Shown here: in pieces, positions 7,768-18,952 of the stretch
Layout of the letters: each line of letters begins with the position of its first letter
How positions within the stretch are numbered: the stretch's first letter is position 1
DNA from: Candidatus Rokuibacteriota bacterium
GTDB taxonomy: Bacteria; Methylomirabilota; Methylomirabilia; Rokubacteriales; CSP1-6
NCBI GenBank assembly: GCA_003220435.1
Contig: QHSL01000060.1
Location: 1-47,916, forward strand
Direction of reading: 5' to 3'
DNA: 47,916 nucleotides
Notes under the pieces: model-generated
The model's database searches: none
Seen by the model: the letters and a program-made list of their open reading frames with translations, nothing else
Told to the model about the DNA's origin: nothing
Translations under genes and position numbers: made by a program

Positions 7768-8844
7768 ATGGCACGCGCAGTTGCGGACATGACGCCGACC
7801 GGCTCCCTCGAGCGCGTCGTAAGCCGCACCTTCACGGTCTCGAGCTTCAAGCTCGAGAGCGGCCAGGTGCTCGCCGAGCTCACGCTCGCCTACGAGAGCT
7901 ACGGGCGACTCGCGGCCGACGGCCGCAACGCGATCCTGATCACCCACGGCTTCACGAGCAATCACCACGCTGCGGGTACGTACACGGCCACCGACCTGCA
8001 GGCCGGCTGGTGGGACGGGCTCATCGGCCACGGCAAGACGATCGACACCAATCGCTACTTCGTCGTTTCGTCGAATATGCTCGGGTCGTCCTACGGCTCG
8101 ACGGCGCCGCGCAGCGTGAACCCGAGCACCGGCAAGCCCTACGGACCCAACTTCCCGGACATCACACTGCGCGACATCGTGGGCGCGCAGAAGCTGATGC
8201 TCGACGGCCTCGGCATCAGGCATCTGGTCGCCGTGGCGGGCCCGTCGTACGGTGGCTACCAGTCCTTCCAGTGGGCGGCGACGCACCCGACGTTCATGAG
8301 CGGCGTCGTCCCGGTCGTCACCGCGCCGAAGGGCTCCGGCGGCGACGCCGCGGTGAAAACGCTCGTCGACCGGTTCGCCACCGATCCGAACTGGAATGGC
8401 GGCTGGCACTACGAGCGCGGCGGCATTTTCCCCACCCTGCTCCAGCTGCGCATCGAGACGCTCGAGCGTTACGGCCAGAACGAGATCCTGGCTCGCACGA
8501 TCCCCGACGGAGGCGAGCGCGCGACGCGAATCCGGCAGCTCGCCGACACCTGGGCACGGCAGTTCGATCCCAACTCGATGGTCACGCTCCGCAAGGCGGC
8601 GGTGAAGTTCGACGCCGAGCGTGATTTCGGACGGGTGCGTGCGAAGGTGCTCTACGTGCTGTCGCGAACCGACAAGATCTTTCCGCCGTCCATCGCGCCG
8701 GCGGTCATGGACAAGCTCGCGCGCGCCGGCGTCGGCGCGAAGTACTTCGAGATCGACACCGAATTCGGGCATTCAGCGAGCGGGCCCGAGTGGGCGAAAT
8801 GGGCGCCGACCCTGAAGGACTTCCTCGCGAAGCTCGAGCAGTAG
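7768..8844 (+). CDS. MetX-like alpha/beta-hydrolase (homoserine acetyltransferase superfamily)
   Basis: A 358-aa cytoplasmic alpha/beta-hydrolase close to the homoserine O-acetyltransferase (MetX) family. Evidence: LAYESYGRL near residue 50, the oxyanion region AILITHGFTSNHHA, nucleophile elbow GPSYGGYQ (Ser), the acid in SRTDKIFPP (Asp), and catalytic His in EFGHSASGPEW. MetX enzymes usually have GGSMGGMQ at the elbow, so GPSYGGYQ suggests a divergent member, perhaps a hydrolase or acyltransferase with another substrate. The start ATG 7768 has GGGAGG seven nt upstream. The next gene starts 14 bp after its stop, so it may be co-transcribed with the formate dehydrogenase genes. The 187-bp gap before it holds only a 24-codon ORF. 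Confidence 0.85.
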   Translation: MARAVADMTPTGSLERVVSRTFTVSSFKLESGQVLAELTLAYESYGRLAADGRNAILITHGFTSNHHAAGTYTATDLQAGWWDGLIGHGKTIDTNRYFVVSSNMLGSSYGSTAPRSVNPSTGKPYGPNFPDITLRDIVGAQKLMLDGLGIRHLVAVAGPSYGGYQSFQWAATHPTFMSGVVPVVTAPKGSGGDAAVKTLVDRFATDPNWNGGWHYERGGIFPTLLQLRIETLERYGQNEILARTIPDGGERATRIRQLADTWARQFDPNSMVTLRKAAVKFDAERDFGRVRAKVLYVLSRTDKIFPPSIAPAVMDKLARAGVGAKYFEIDTEFGHSASGPEWAKWAPTLKDFLAKLEQ

Positions 8845-8858
8845 CCCGTCGCCCCGCG

Positions 8859-10895
8859 ATGACCGACCCCACGGACTCGCTCGCCGCGCTCCCGCGTGAG
8901 CGCACATGGCTCCTGCCGGCGCTCCGGGCGGCGCAGCACGGCGAGCGCTGGCTTTCTCCCGACACCCTCGACCGGATCGCCGCGCACCTGCGCGTACCGA
9001 AGAGCGAGGTCTGGGGCGTCGCGAGCCACTACCCCGAGCTGAGGCTCACCCGGCCGGGACGACGCATCGTCCGGGTGTGCACCGGCGTGAGCTGCCGGGT
9101 GCTGGGCGGCCGCGAGCTGCTCACCGCGTGCGAGCAGCGGCTCGGCGTTCGTGCCGGCCAGACCGCGGCCGACGGCGCGGTCACCCTCGAGGAGCTCGAT
9201 TGCGCGTTCGCGTGCTCGGTCGCGCCCGTCGTCGAGGTCGATCACGCAATCCGGGGCCGGGTGACGACTGGCGACCTCGCGTCGCTGCTCAGCGCGCCGG
9301 GTCACCACGAAGTCCCTCGGCCGATCGTGGCCGCGCTCGGCCCGGCCGTCTCGGGATCGCCCATGCAGCGGCTCGCCACCCTCGTGCGGGAGGCGAAGCG
9401 CCGGGGCACCGGGACGCGGCTCGCGGTGGGCGTGGGGTCTTGCTCGGTTGCCGTCGGCGCCGGCGACACGTTCACGGCGCTTCGTGAGGAGGTGGCTCGG
9501 CGGAAGCTCCCGCTCACCGTCATCGCCGCCGGTTGCAACGGGATGTGCTGGGCCGCGCCCGCCGTCACGGTCCTCCGCGAAGGCGCGGCACCCGTCGTCG
9601 TGGGGCCGGTGGCCGCGGCCGAAGTCCCGCGGCTGCTCGACGCGGTCTCGTCCGGCGCGGGCGACGGGCTCCGCGACGTCGGCCGAGACGCGATGGGACC
9701 GCAGCATCGCGTTCTGCTCGAGCGCTGCGGCGTGGTCGACGCCGACGACATCGCCGACGCGCTCCGCCACGGCGCCTACGCCGCACTGGCCCAAGCGCTC
9801 GACGGCGGCGCGCCCGAGCGCGTGATCGAAGAGGTCCGCACCGCGGGGCTCACGGGGCGCGGTGGCGCTTATTTCCAGACGGCGGTGAAGTGGGCCGGCT
9901 GCCGGGCGGCGGCGGGCGCGCCGAAGTACATCGTCATGAACGGCGAAGAGGGCGAGCCGGGCATCTTCAAGGACCGCCACCTGATGGAGGGCGACCCGCA
10001 CCGGCTGCTGGAGGCCGTGCTGCTCGCCGCCTACGCCGTCGGCGCTTCGCGCGGCGTCCTTTATATACACGGCGAGGCCGAGCTCTCGGCCGAGCGCGTG
10101 GCCGCCGCGCTCGCGCAGGCCCGTCGCAGTGGGTTGGTGGGCGAGCAGATCCTCGGCTCGGACTTCTCGCTCGAGGTCGAGATTCGGCGGGGCCTCGGCG
10201 GCTTCGTCCTCGGCGAGGAGACGGCGCTGCTCGAGTCGATCGAGGGGCGGCGGGCGATGCCGCGCACGCGCCCGCCGTTTCCGGTCGAGGCAGGACTCTG
10301 GGGCAAGCCCACCGTGATCAACAACGTCGAGACGCTCTTCGCCGTGCCGTCGATCGTCGCGCGCGGCGGCGCCTGGTTCGCCGGGCTGGGCGGCGGCCGC
10401 GGGACCAAGCTCTTCGGCCTCTCGGGACACGTCCGGCGTCCCGGCATCGTCGAGATGGAACTCGGCTGTACGCTCCGCACGCTGATCGACGCGGTCGGCG
10501 GCGGATCGTCGACCGGGCGGCCCATCTTCGCCATGGTGGTCGGGGGACCGTCGGGCAGCGTCGTGAATCCCCGTCACTTCGACGAGCCGCTGATCCCGCG
10601 CGGCCCCGTCAATCCTGGCACCGGCGGCGTCGTCGCGCTCGACGAGGGGGCGTCGGTGCGCGACGTCGTCGGCACGCTGCTCGCCTTCAACACCCGCGAG
10701 TCGTGCGGCAAGTGCACGCCGTGCCGCGAGGGGACTGCGCGGCTCCTGGCGATGCTCGAGGCGCCGGTCGATCAGGCGAGCGTGAGGCAGCTCAGCGAGG
10801 TCATCCAGCTCGCTTCGCTCTGCGGTCTCGGCCAGGCCGCGCCGTTCGCGGTCCTCTCCGGGCTCGCCGAGTTCCCGCGCGAGTTCGGCGTATGA
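8859..10895 (+). CDS. NuoE-NuoF fusion, NAD(H)-linked formate dehydrogenase beta subunit
   Basis: A 678-aa diaphorase-type electron-transfer subunit. Residues about 1-155 are a NuoE-like thioredoxin-fold [2Fe-2S] domain with four Cys (VCTGVSC... and CAFAC). A second thioredoxin-like domain follows (GSCSVAVGAG... GCNGMC), as in HoxF/HydB-type NuoF proteins. The NuoF core has the FMN/NADH site (GLTGRGGAYFQTAVKW, MNGEEGEPGIFKDRH) and the SLBB region. A C-terminal [4Fe-4S] site is SCGKCTPCREG with a distal Cys in LASLCGLGQ. It passes electrons between the molybdenum subunit and NAD. The start is the ATG at 8859 rather than an upstream in-frame ATG inside the preceding gene. Its TGA overlaps the next ATG (ATGA). 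Confidence 0.92.
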   Translation: MTDPTDSLAALPRERTWLLPALRAAQHGERWLSPDTLDRIAAHLRVPKSEVWGVASHYPELRLTRPGRRIVRVCTGVSCRVLGGRELLTACEQRLGVRAGQTAADGAVTLEELDCAFACSVAPVVEVDHAIRGRVTTGDLASLLSAPGHHEVPRPIVAALGPAVSGSPMQRLATLVREAKRRGTGTRLAVGVGSCSVAVGAGDTFTALREEVARRKLPLTVIAAGCNGMCWAAPAVTVLREGAAPVVVGPVAAAEVPRLLDAVSSGAGDGLRDVGRDAMGPQHRVLLERCGVVDADDIADALRHGAYAALAQALDGGAPERVIEEVRTAGLTGRGGAYFQTAVKWAGCRAAAGAPKYIVMNGEEGEPGIFKDRHLMEGDPHRLLEAVLLAAYAVGASRGVLYIHGEAELSAERVAAALAQARRSGLVGEQILGSDFSLEVEIRRGLGGFVLGEETALLESIEGRRAMPRTRPPFPVEAGLWGKPTVINNVETLFAVPSIVARGGAWFAGLGGGRGTKLFGLSGHVRRPGIVEMELGCTLRTLIDAVGGGSSTGRPIFAMVVGGPSGSVVNPRHFDEPLIPRGPVNPGTGGVVALDEGASVRDVVGTLLAFNTRESCGKCTPCREGTARLLAMLEAPVDQASVRQLSEVIQLASLCGLGQAAPFAVLSGLAEFPREFGV

Positions 10896-13666
10896 TACGT
10901 GCGATGAAGCTCGCCATCGACGGCCGGACCGTCGAGCTGCCCCAGGGCGCCACCGTCCTCGACGGCGTGAACCGCCTGGGGATCCCGCTGCCTCAGCTGT
11001 GCAAGGATCCCGACCAGCCTCCGCTCGGCGCGTGCCGGACCTGTCTCGTCCACGTCGAGGGCCAGCGCGGGCTGCCGGCCTCCTGCCACCTGCCCGCCCG
11101 CGACGGCATGGTCGTCTCGACGGAGCATCCCGACGCGATCCGCGTACGGAAAGCGGTGCTCGATCTCACGCGCTCGATGCTGACGGAATCGGACGGGCGG
11201 AACGGCTTCGGACAGCTCAGTCAGGCCGGAGCGCGGCACGGGCTGCTCGAGCCCGCGTGGGCGCCGCTCCACCAGTTCGAGGTCGACGCGACCAAATCGT
11301 TCTTCGTCCTCGATCGCGAGGCGTGCATCCTCTGCGGCCGCTGCGCGGTCGCGTGCGACGACGTGCAGCAGATCGGGGCGATCGCGCTCCTGGGGCGCGG
11401 CCACGCGACGAAGGTCGGCGTCTTCGGCGACGGCGCCATGGCCTCGTCGGCGTGCACCTCGTGCGGCCAGTGCGTGGCGACGTGCCCGACCGGCGCGCTG
11501 CGGCCCAAGGAATGGCCCGCCAAGATCGACCGCAACGTCGAGACGACGTGCCCGTACTGTGGCGTTGGCTGCGGCGTCTCGCTGAGCGTGTTCGCCGGGG
11601 AGTCGACAGGGGGGCGGAGCGCCCTTCTCCCAGAAAAGCTCGCCGTGATGGCCGACGACGTGCCGTCGAACCGCTCGAGCCTCGGCATGCTCTGCGTCAA
11701 GGGCCGCTTCGGGACCGGCTTCATCCACGCGCGAGATCGGATCACGTCCCCGCTGGTCCGCCGCGACGGGCGCTGGGTCGAGGTGAGCTGGGACGAGGCG
11801 CTCGACGTCGCCGCCGAAGGGCTCGCGCGCAACCGCGGCCGGTTCGGTGCGCTCGCCAGCGCCAAGGCCACCAACGAGGACGGCTACGTCATCCAGAAGT
11901 TCTGCCGCGTCGTGATGCAGACCAACGACGTGGACCACTGCACGCGCCTCTGCCACTCGCCCTCGGTCGAGGCGATGTTGGCCTCGATGGGCTCCGGCGC
12001 CACGTCGAACTCGTACCAGGACTACGAGGAGGCCGGCTGCCTGATGGTTGTTGGCGCCGACGCCTCGGCGAACCATCCGGTGATCGCGATTCGCTTCCGC
12101 CGCGCGGTGAGCCGCGGCGCGCGGTTGATCGTCATCAATCCCAAGCGCATCGAGCTGTGCGACCAGGCCGACCTCTGGATCCAGCAGCGCCCGGGCACGG
12201 ACGTGGCGCTGTTCAACGCGATGTCCCGGGTGATCCTCGACGAGGGGCTCGCCGCCCACGCGTTCATCGGTGCGCGCACCGAGGGCTTCGAGGCGTGGCG
12301 CGAGTCGCTGGCCCCATTCACGCTCGAGTACGCGTCCCGCGTCACCGGCGTGCCGGCCGAGGACATCGCGCAGGCCGCGCGCTGGTACGCGCGACCAGCG
12401 GGTTCGCAGGGGGGTCGAGAGGGGCGCGGAGCCCCCTTCTCCCAAAGAAATGGCTCGTGTCTGATCTGGGGCATGGGGATCACCCAGCACGTCAACGGGA
12501 TCCACAACGCGCACGCGCTCCTGAATCTCTCGCTGGTCGCCGGCCAGATGGGCTTCGCGGGCAGCGGCATCTCGCCGCTGCGCGGCCAGAACAACGTCCA
12601 GGGCTGCGGCGACGCCGGCTGCATCCCGACGAACCTGCCGGGCTATCAGCAGTACGTCCCGGAGACGCTCGCGAAGTTCGAGTCCGCGTGGGGGACGAGG
12701 CCGCCGGGCCGGCCCGGCCGCGTCGTGACCGAGATGGTCGAGGGATGCCTCTCCGGCGAGACGCGCGCGATGTACGTCGTCGGCGAGAACCCCCTGCTCT
12801 CGGAGCCCGACCTCCACCACGCCGAGAAGGCGATCGGCCAACTCGACTTCCTGGTGGTCCAGGACCTCTTCATGCACGAGACCGCCGAGCGGGCGCACGT
12901 GTTCCTGCCCGCGGCCGCGTTCGCCGAGAAGGAAGGTACCTTCACCAACTCCGAGCGACGCGTGCAGCGCGTCCGCCGGGCTCTGTCGCCCCCCGGCGGC
13001 GCGCAGCCCGACTGGTGGATCGCGTCCGAGCTGGCGAAGCGCGTCGCGGCGAGGCTGGGCGTGGACGTCGGGCGCCAGTTCGATTACGACGGCTCGGCGG
13101 CGATCTTCGACGAGATGGCCCGCCTCACGCCCTTCCTCGGCGGTCTCTCGCACGCGCGCCTCGACCGCGAGGGCGGGTTGCAGTGGCCGTGCCCGACGTT
13201 CGAGCACCCGGGCACGCGCTATCTCTACGCAGAGTCCTTCCCACTCGGCCGGGCGCGGTTCATCGCCGCGCGGGAGACGGTGGAAGCCGCCGAGCTTCCC
13301 GACGCCGAGTTCCCATTCGTCCTCAACACCGGCCGGCTCCTCTATCACTGGCACGGCGGCACGCTGACCCGGCGCGTCCAGGGGCTGCTCGAGCTGGCGC
13401 CGCGCCTCGAGGTCGCCGTGCATCCGAGCGACGCCCGCCGGCTCGGTGTCGACGCCGGCTCGCGCATCCGCGTGGTCTCGCGCCGCGGCGAGCTCGACGC
13501 CCACGTGCACGTCACCGAGGCGGTGCGGGCCGGCGCGGTCTTCGTGCCGTTCGTGAAGCTCGCCGAGTCCGCCGCGAATTTCCTGACGAACTCCGCGTGC
13601 GATCCCGCGTCCAAGATCCCCGAGTACAAGGTCTGCGCCGTCCGTCTCGAGCGCCCGGCCGAGTAG
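10892..13666 (+). CDS. fdhA: Molybdenum formate dehydrogenase alpha subunit with NuoG-like N-terminus
   Basis: A 924-aa formate dehydrogenase catalytic subunit that oxidises formate to CO2 (or the reverse). N-terminal [2Fe-2S] ferredoxin domain: Cys 37, 48, 51 and 65. Two [4Fe-4S] clusters: CILCGRCAVAC (145-155) and CTSCGQCVATC (188-198). The Mo-domain cluster uses Cys 220, 223, 227 and 268. The Mo ligand is Cys 354 in TRLCHSPSV, so no selenocysteine is used. The C-terminal dinucleotide-binding domain (NTGRLLYHWHGGTLTRR) is complete. It is coupled to the NuoEF fusion by ATGA, making a compact two-gene NAD-type enzyme. Two stretches, about residues 237-249 and 504-520, are extra loops encoded by a shared nucleotide repeat (see repeat entries). 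No accessory fdhD or mob gene is nearby. Confidence 0.94.
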   Translation: MIRAMKLAIDGRTVELPQGATVLDGVNRLGIPLPQLCKDPDQPPLGACRTCLVHVEGQRGLPASCHLPARDGMVVSTEHPDAIRVRKAVLDLTRSMLTESDGRNGFGQLSQAGARHGLLEPAWAPLHQFEVDATKSFFVLDREACILCGRCAVACDDVQQIGAIALLGRGHATKVGVFGDGAMASSACTSCGQCVATCPTGALRPKEWPAKIDRNVETTCPYCGVGCGVSLSVFAGESTGGRSALLPEKLAVMADDVPSNRSSLGMLCVKGRFGTGFIHARDRITSPLVRRDGRWVEVSWDEALDVAAEGLARNRGRFGALASAKATNEDGYVIQKFCRVVMQTNDVDHCTRLCHSPSVEAMLASMGSGATSNSYQDYEEAGCLMVVGADASANHPVIAIRFRRAVSRGARLIVINPKRIELCDQADLWIQQRPGTDVALFNAMSRVILDEGLAAHAFIGARTEGFEAWRESLAPFTLEYASRVTGVPAEDIAQAARWYARPAGSQGGREGRGAPFSQRNGSCLIWGMGITQHVNGIHNAHALLNLSLVAGQMGFAGSGISPLRGQNNVQGCGDAGCIPTNLPGYQQYVPETLAKFESAWGTRPPGRPGRVVTEMVEGCLSGETRAMYVVGENPLLSEPDLHHAEKAIGQLDFLVVQDLFMHETAERAHVFLPAAAFAEKEGTFTNSERRVQRVRRALSPPGGAQPDWWIASELAKRVAARLGVDVGRQFDYDGSAAIFDEMARLTPFLGGLSHARLDREGGLQWPCPTFEHPGTRYLYAESFPLGRARFIAARETVEAAELPDAEFPFVLNTGRLLYHWHGGTLTRRVQGLLELAPRLEVAVHPSDARRLGVDAGSRIRVVSRRGELDAHVHVTEAVRAGAVFVPFVKLAESAANFLTNSACDPASKIPEYKVCAVRLERPAE
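11591..11637 (+). repeat. In-gene dispersed repeat, copy A
   Basis: This 47-nt stretch aligns without gaps to 12403-12449 with 40 identities. Its G-rich and C-rich halves can form a small hairpin (GGGCG-GAG-CGCCC). It lies inside the formate dehydrogenase gene and encodes roughly residues 234-249, between the CPYCGVGCGVSLSV motif and MADDVPSNRSS. In this copy the codon boundary falls after the G of the shared GTCGA, unlike copy B, so the two copies give unrelated peptides. Confidence 0.85.
12403..12449 (+). repeat. In-gene dispersed repeat, copy B
   Basis: Partner of the repeat at 11591-11637, 812 bp downstream and therefore in a different reading frame. It contains GGGGC-GCGGA-GCCCC, another small hairpin, followed by the shared CTTCTCCCA block. 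It encodes a Gly/Arg-rich loop at about residues 504-519, between ARWYARP and SCLIWGMGITQH, two segments that are nearly adjacent in usual family members. Confidence 0.85.
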
Positions 13667-18776: not shown

Positions 18777-18952
18777 GGGGGCGAGGCGGGCGAGCGGGCG
18801 CGGTGGGGGAGGGGTCCACCGGACCCGTTCCCTACAAAGTGTCGTCGGAAGTCACGCGCCTGGATGGAGCCCAGCCGAGCCGGAGCAGCGCACGCGTACC
18901 GCGTGGTCCGGGGACCCCTCCCCCACCGCGCCCGTCCGCCCGCCTCGCTCCC
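18777..18952. repeat. Long GC-rich inverted repeat between convergent genes
   Basis: Positions 18783-18817 pair with 18912-18946: 35 nt with two mismatches. The pairing continues outward for about six further bases and inward through GGTCC/GGACC with a single extra base. The arms enclose about 90 nt. The element occupies nearly all the space between the deacetylase (ends 18762) and the oppositely oriented beta-lactamase-NamZ gene (ends 18969). It may be a bidirectional terminator, a MITE-like element, or both. There is no T-run. Confidence 0.85.

Follow-up and report, generated by a model that had tools for sequence, protein, structure and literature searches.

Palindromic elements of Rickettsia (RPEs), about 100-150 bp long, lie inside genes without loss of the reading frame (PMC3767692), and among RPEs and their Wolbachia relatives orthologous sites have been found filled, empty or occupied by different classes (PMC3767692, PMC2229807). 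REPs with GTAG or CGTC tags also occur within genes, even two to a gene as in uvrA and uvrB, and those of the CGTC type lack a dedicated transposase (PMC3733652). MITEs are small non-autonomous repeats of about 100-200 bp that are sometimes translated in fusion with their host gene (PMC2229807). A search of the open literature, with subscription journals lying outside it, turned up no publication describing repeats of this kind from Rokubacteria. Here we analyze a stretch of 47,916 nucleotides from Candidatus Rokuibacteriota bacterium (hereafter the window), in which the initial annotation had noticed one repeat inserted twice in a formate dehydrogenase gene. The two copies are very probably members of a family of small palindromic repeats that spreads as DNA, the loops that it adds to proteins being passengers.

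The initial annotation had likened the repeat in principle to RPEs, and the likeness is apt: the Rokubacterial repeat lies between and inside conserved genes, is inserted in frame in the latter, and its sites are empty in relatives. Unlike RPEs it is only about 50 or about 70 nt long, GC-rich and from another phylum, and it occurs in both orientations at one codon and as in-frame tandem copies; homology to the RPE classes is unlikely in view of GC content and phylum. With tagged REPs it shares short hairpins kept by pairing (in its long and two-hairpin forms) and a mostly intergenic location, often between unidirectional genes and occasionally within genes. However, its short-form (A2) consensus, inspected by eye, contains neither GTAG nor CGTC on either strand, its copies abut the downstream start whereas described REPs lie near the upstream stop (PMC3733652), and the short form reaches 0 to 22 matches per genome of the genus (about 2 to 22 where present) compared with more than 100 for tagged REPs, a number that a two-hairpin relative does pass in some genomes. 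Like the REP/RAYT (TnpA-REP) systems it is a hairpin-type repeat without target duplication, but a search for the Y1 (RAYT-type) transposase PF01797, whose positive control worked, found none in any of the nine genomes of the genus (g1) or in those four genomes where the two-hairpin relative is most abundant. Like bacterial MITEs (Correia, ERIC, RUP, YPAL) it is small, non-autonomous and translated in genes, but it shows no target duplication and is about half their usual size. The family thus works like RPEs and intragenic REPs, yet is new, with its own structure, no GTAG/CGTC tag and no RAYT.

Table 1. Features of the window around the two copies. Names rest on the evidence in the last column; the NuoE/NuoF-like name is one that we take from sequence motifs as generally known.
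Feature	Coordinates	Strand	Basis
NuoE/NuoF-like gene, adjoining fdhA on the upstream side	8790..10895	+	ORF translation
fdhA, formate dehydrogenase alpha subunit, host of both copies	10904..13666	+	TIGR01591, Pfam, reading frame
fdhA site 0, empty in the window	11180..11203	+	alignment of TLSML... region
Element copy 1 (fdhA site 1)	11584..11637	+	model R1, 70.5 bits, E 3.7e-17 (window search; model input includes this copy)
Element copy 2 (fdhA site 2)	12396..12450	+	model R1, 72.2 bits, E 1.3e-17 (window search; model input includes this copy)

The host protein scores 677 bits against TIGR01591 (cut-off 666) and matches PF00384, PF01568, PF04879 and PF13510, with N-terminal 2Fe-2S and 4Fe-4S domains followed by molybdopterin domains. 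The gapless match of 40 of 47 bases originally reported between 11591-11637 and 12403-12449 was confirmed; the best 47-base window at the 812 offset has 41 matches, and the similarity reaches 53 nt (11585-11637 versus 12397-12449, 85%). Shuffled versions of the gene (20 dinucleotide and 20 codon shuffles) gave at most 32 of 47 matches, ruling out chance likeness. Because the spacing of 812 bp is not a multiple of 3, the copies are read in different frames and yield, as had been stated, unrelated peptides: FAGESTGGRSALLPE, flanked by CGVGCGVSLSV and KLAVMADD, in copy 1, and AGSQGGREGRGAPFSQRN, flanked by ARWYARP and GSCLIWGMG, in copy 2. The insertion points likewise lie where they had been placed, after CPYCGVGCGVSLSV and after ARWYARP. 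A covariance model made from 20 family copies, both window copies among them, matched the window at these two places in fdhA and nowhere else (Table 1).

The short form, of about 50 nt and with the consensus CCGCGTGTTCGCnGGGGAGTCGAGAGGGGGGCGGAGCCCCCTTCTCCCAA, begins with a weak hairpin, GCGTGTTCGC, and continues with GGGGGAG, a hairpin, TCGAGAGGGGGGCGGAGCCCCCTTCTC, and CCAA. The long form (A3), of about 70 nt, carries an additional nested hairpin placed between two CGGAG repeats, and the short form could have arisen from it by deletion between these direct repeats. In the two-hairpin relative, conserved in other genera, the hairpins are linked by GGGGGGAGG. The initial annotation had described the element as hairpin-forming, which holds for the long form, strongly structured relative to shuffles (z about -5), but less so for the short form, which as DNA is moderate (z -1.9) and as RNA is not unusually stable (z 0.4 and -0.9). 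Its claim that the element is open in more than one frame divides along the same line: all six frames being open is unusual for the long form (0.7% of shuffles), but is ordinary for the GC-rich short form (57% of shuffles), for which we rejected it as a special trait. Pairing is 97.5% in the long form, with 14 double-changed cells compared with 5.4 +/- 1.6 in shuffled and 0 to 4 in slid versions, and 98.2% in the two-hairpin form, with 7 compared with 2.2 +/- 1.0 in shuffled versions; both structures (that of the two-hairpin form from RNAalifold) were predicted from the alignments that also supplied these covariation counts, which in the two-hairpin form favors the structure somewhat. The compensatory base-pair changes in the long and two-hairpin forms argue that the hairpin itself is maintained; covariation was looked for in the short form as well and none was seen. 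Rfam had no described RNA family at four loci, one unrelated match falling below threshold.

A search for further copies of the unit, as the initial annotation had proposed, gave 14 model matches in 9 places in the window's genome (G000) and 76 in total in eight of the nine genomes of its genus. The two-hairpin relative reached at least 126 matches in each of four genomes (G020, G022, G036 and G037) and had no match in 13 genomes from other families of the class. As far as searched, the family is restricted to Rokubacteriales. The closest named FdhA records come from Rokuibacteriota bins from soil and groundwater; the genomes compared are all metagenome bins, several of them from one soil project.

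Comparison of FdhA homologues showed that the loops are not conserved: close relatives differ in which sites are filled and which are empty. At site 0, which has no insert in the window, G008 carries a forward copy, G007 a reverse copy and G025 a forward variant. Inserts at site 1 occur in G000, G003, G008, G032 and G029 (L036, where the G029 gene runs off its contig) but not in G001, G004, G007, G011 and others. Site 2 is occupied in G000, G007 and G008 and empty in G001, in G004 and in the sister genome G003, which reads PPFAGSC there; two genomes of other genera, G013 and G025, carry relatives of the element at the same codon in reverse orientation. The solved homologue 7vw6 lacks the loops at both sites 1 and 2. 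Mapped on the FdhA tree, site 0 requires at least 4 changes of state, site 1 at least 4 and site 2 at least 5. An unrelated-looking insert of 14 amino acids occupies site 2 in G017 (L073), and FdhA paralogues of relatives (e.g., G005:C41, G010:C203 and G052:C388) contain one in-frame TGA, probably encoding selenocysteine.

The claim that a DNA-level element is also present in other genes was borne out. When 62 copies from the genus were classified by coding signal at both flanks, 15 were cleanly intragenic, in four conserved genes whose identities were confirmed with Pfam and NCBIfam: fdhA (8, at three sites), a molybdenum hydroxylase of the xanthine dehydrogenase/4-hydroxybenzoyl-CoA reductase type (3), pyrF (2) and comEC (2). 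Copies at orthologous places are not independent, so these counts overstate the number of events. Intragenic copies use three sense frames and both orientations, giving GSREGGGAPFSQ at fdhA site 2 and in the hydroxylase, GVERGAEP in pyrF, AGESRGGRSPLLP at fdhA site 1 and in comEC, and the antisense reading GAPPPSRFPGESS at fdhA site 0 of G007. Since one sequence occurs in different genes, in three sense frames, in both orientations and between genes, the element acts as DNA.

One fdhA gene in G008 has three copies, and a cytochrome bd-type oxidase gene has a C-terminal end made up of further copies. The hydroxylase loop varies in content, being short, long, tandem, two-hairpin, reduced to 3' relics or without any copy; in G019 (L225) the same loop contains an unrelated-looking tandem variant of 46 amino acids. 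In pyrF, which encodes orotidine 5'-phosphate decarboxylase, a loop flanked by TPGIRP and DDQ has a single copy in G021 and a copy in G007, is reduced to relics in G005 and G001 and lacks the element in G004, G017, G035 and G036, while the G008 gene (L193) has three tandem long-form copies in frame, with a 66-nt period, adjoining the conserved PGIR...DDQ.

Most copies are intergenic and lie between co-directional genes just ahead of a ribosome-binding site, the element usually filling the gap from the stop codon to that site; copies also occur at convergent and divergent junctions. Of 17 distinct places where the flanking genes are co-directional, 15 have the element in sense orientation (sign test by hand, about 0.002); the next start codon is at most 17 nt away in 28 of 30 copies, and 21 of the 30 have a Shine-Dalgarno-like motif. 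The rplR-rpsE spacer illustrates the variation: it is empty in G004 and G006, has one unit in G001 and in G007, two in G002, three in G000 and five in G003, holds a reversed two-hairpin relative in G005, and reads N in G008. The empty allele runs TAG then GAGAATCGAG, the filled allele TAG, element, GAGAATCCGAG; comparison of G006 with G002 at this spacer revealed no target duplication, the insertion falling between the stop codon and the Shine-Dalgarno motif. At the fdhA sites small replacements are found at the insertion points. Intergenic arrays (L019:3835-3958, L020:3774-3988 and L264, the G003 rpsE spacer) consist of 45-nt units, each a 10-nt GCGTGTTCGC linker plus a truncated core, with one complete unit last, and unit number varies by species. 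The 3' TTCTCCC of intergenic copies (e.g., L019:3950-3980) is complementary to the next ribosome-binding site, GGGAGAA, and their pairing might possibly serve as a translation switch.

No enzyme accounting for a movement of the element came to light. We rejected the RAYT route, there being no Y1 gene in the nine genomes of the genus and no such repeat near the 13 Y1 loci of other genomes, and also the reverse-transcriptase route, since RVT_1 is absent from seven of the nine genus genomes, the window's included, and present in two. These results, together with the comparison of genomes, suggest that the element spreads as DNA, probably via a single-stranded hairpin, and that it would be moved by a host activity or one supplied in trans, not by a resident RAYT. 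Copies inside genes would persist where a flexible loop takes roughly 11 to 22 additional in-frame residues and where no harm comes from a GC-rich sequence free of stops; selection would leave only in-frame insertions in tolerant loops, and these may later degenerate, become shorter or be amplified in tandem. Most likely the extra loops are neutral passengers and not selected parts of the enzymes. An AlphaFold model of FdhA was too poor for use (mean pLDDT 51), so the presumed exposure of the loops at the protein surface rests on the position of the sites in variable loops. A more specific possibility, to which we give a low probability, is that host replication or repair copies the hairpins into operon junctions and a few gene loops, independently of a transposase, repeatedly and in either orientation.

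A different history is that every site received a single insertion in some Rokubacterial ancestor and that the copies were since lost, shortened, inverted in place or gene-converted, the element being immobile now. We think this distinctly less probable than spread as DNA, but it has substance: several genera have inserts in the same loops (fdhA site 1 in g1, g4 and g22; the hydroxylase in g1, g12 and g13; pyrF in g1 and g14), the hydroxylase and pyrF sites hold graded relics, and each of the three genomes with a forward copy at fdhA site 2 shows a net gain of +45 nt. It is harder to reconcile with site 2 of G003, perfect and ancestral-looking next to its filled sister G000, where a clean loss must have restored PPFAGSC, or with the opposite orientations at one codon, or with site 0, where the copy is forward in G008 and reverse in G007. 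A shared recombined allele at site 2 was considered and rejected, as windows up to and across the site gave no local similarity signal and no sign of a transferred allele, G000 being nearest to G003 there. Vertical inheritance is a serious alternative for the hydroxylase and pyrF sites, and less so for fdhA sites 0 and 2. The low copy number of the short form, its lack of covariation and its small excess of folding also count against spread as DNA, as does the origin of all the genomes from metagenome bins. The sense bias, in turn, points to a role or constraint at the RNA level, which would not be expected if the element were purely selfish DNA. The hairpin might regulate how stable the mRNA is or how well it is translated at operon junctions, e.g., through its 3' TTCTCC competing with the next ribosome-binding site, with in-gene copies as strays. 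The proximity to start codons, the Shine-Dalgarno-like motifs and the compensatory changes in the long and two-hairpin forms are consistent with such a role; we nevertheless regard it as unlikely, because orthologous rpsE junctions work without the element or with a reversed relative, and because copies also reside in coding loops and at convergent and divergent junctions.

Two further explanations carry very little weight. Every insert falls in a variable loop of a conserved protein, as would be expected of Gly/Arg-rich repeats generated by slippage or by selection on surface loops with the DNA likeness as a by-product, but this is contradicted by the frame and intergenic evidence, one DNA sequence giving unrelated peptides at the two fdhA copies and recurring between genes and in antisense, and we consider it extremely improbable. 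Equally improbable is an error of metagenome assembly that put a repeat wrongly within genes: all the genomes are bins and repeats are known to cause such errors, but the same insertions appear in different genomes from soil and groundwater, on contigs of up to 160 kb (the window's contig), in frame and with site-specific differences between copies.

Spread of the repeat as DNA, the reading we prefer, adds a widespread and uncultured phylum of soil bacteria to the groups with palindromic elements inside genes and cautions that loops of Rokubacterial enzymes, even of pyrF and fdhA, may be repeat DNA and not function. Should the transposase-independent copying proposed above be true, the family would provide a major phylum of soil bacteria with a natural and continuing supply of in-frame insertions in proteins. 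Because filled and empty alleles occur at the same sites in close relatives, sometimes in opposite orientations, these genomes make a good system for studying REP-like movement without a transposase, and they also suit the question of whether the added peptides are tolerated or used. Elsewhere in the window lies a different large palindrome, an inverted repeat of 41 nt (18777-18817 and 18912-18952, 93% complementary, 94 nt apart), situated between a polysaccharide-deacetylase-like ORF and a long minus-strand ORF.
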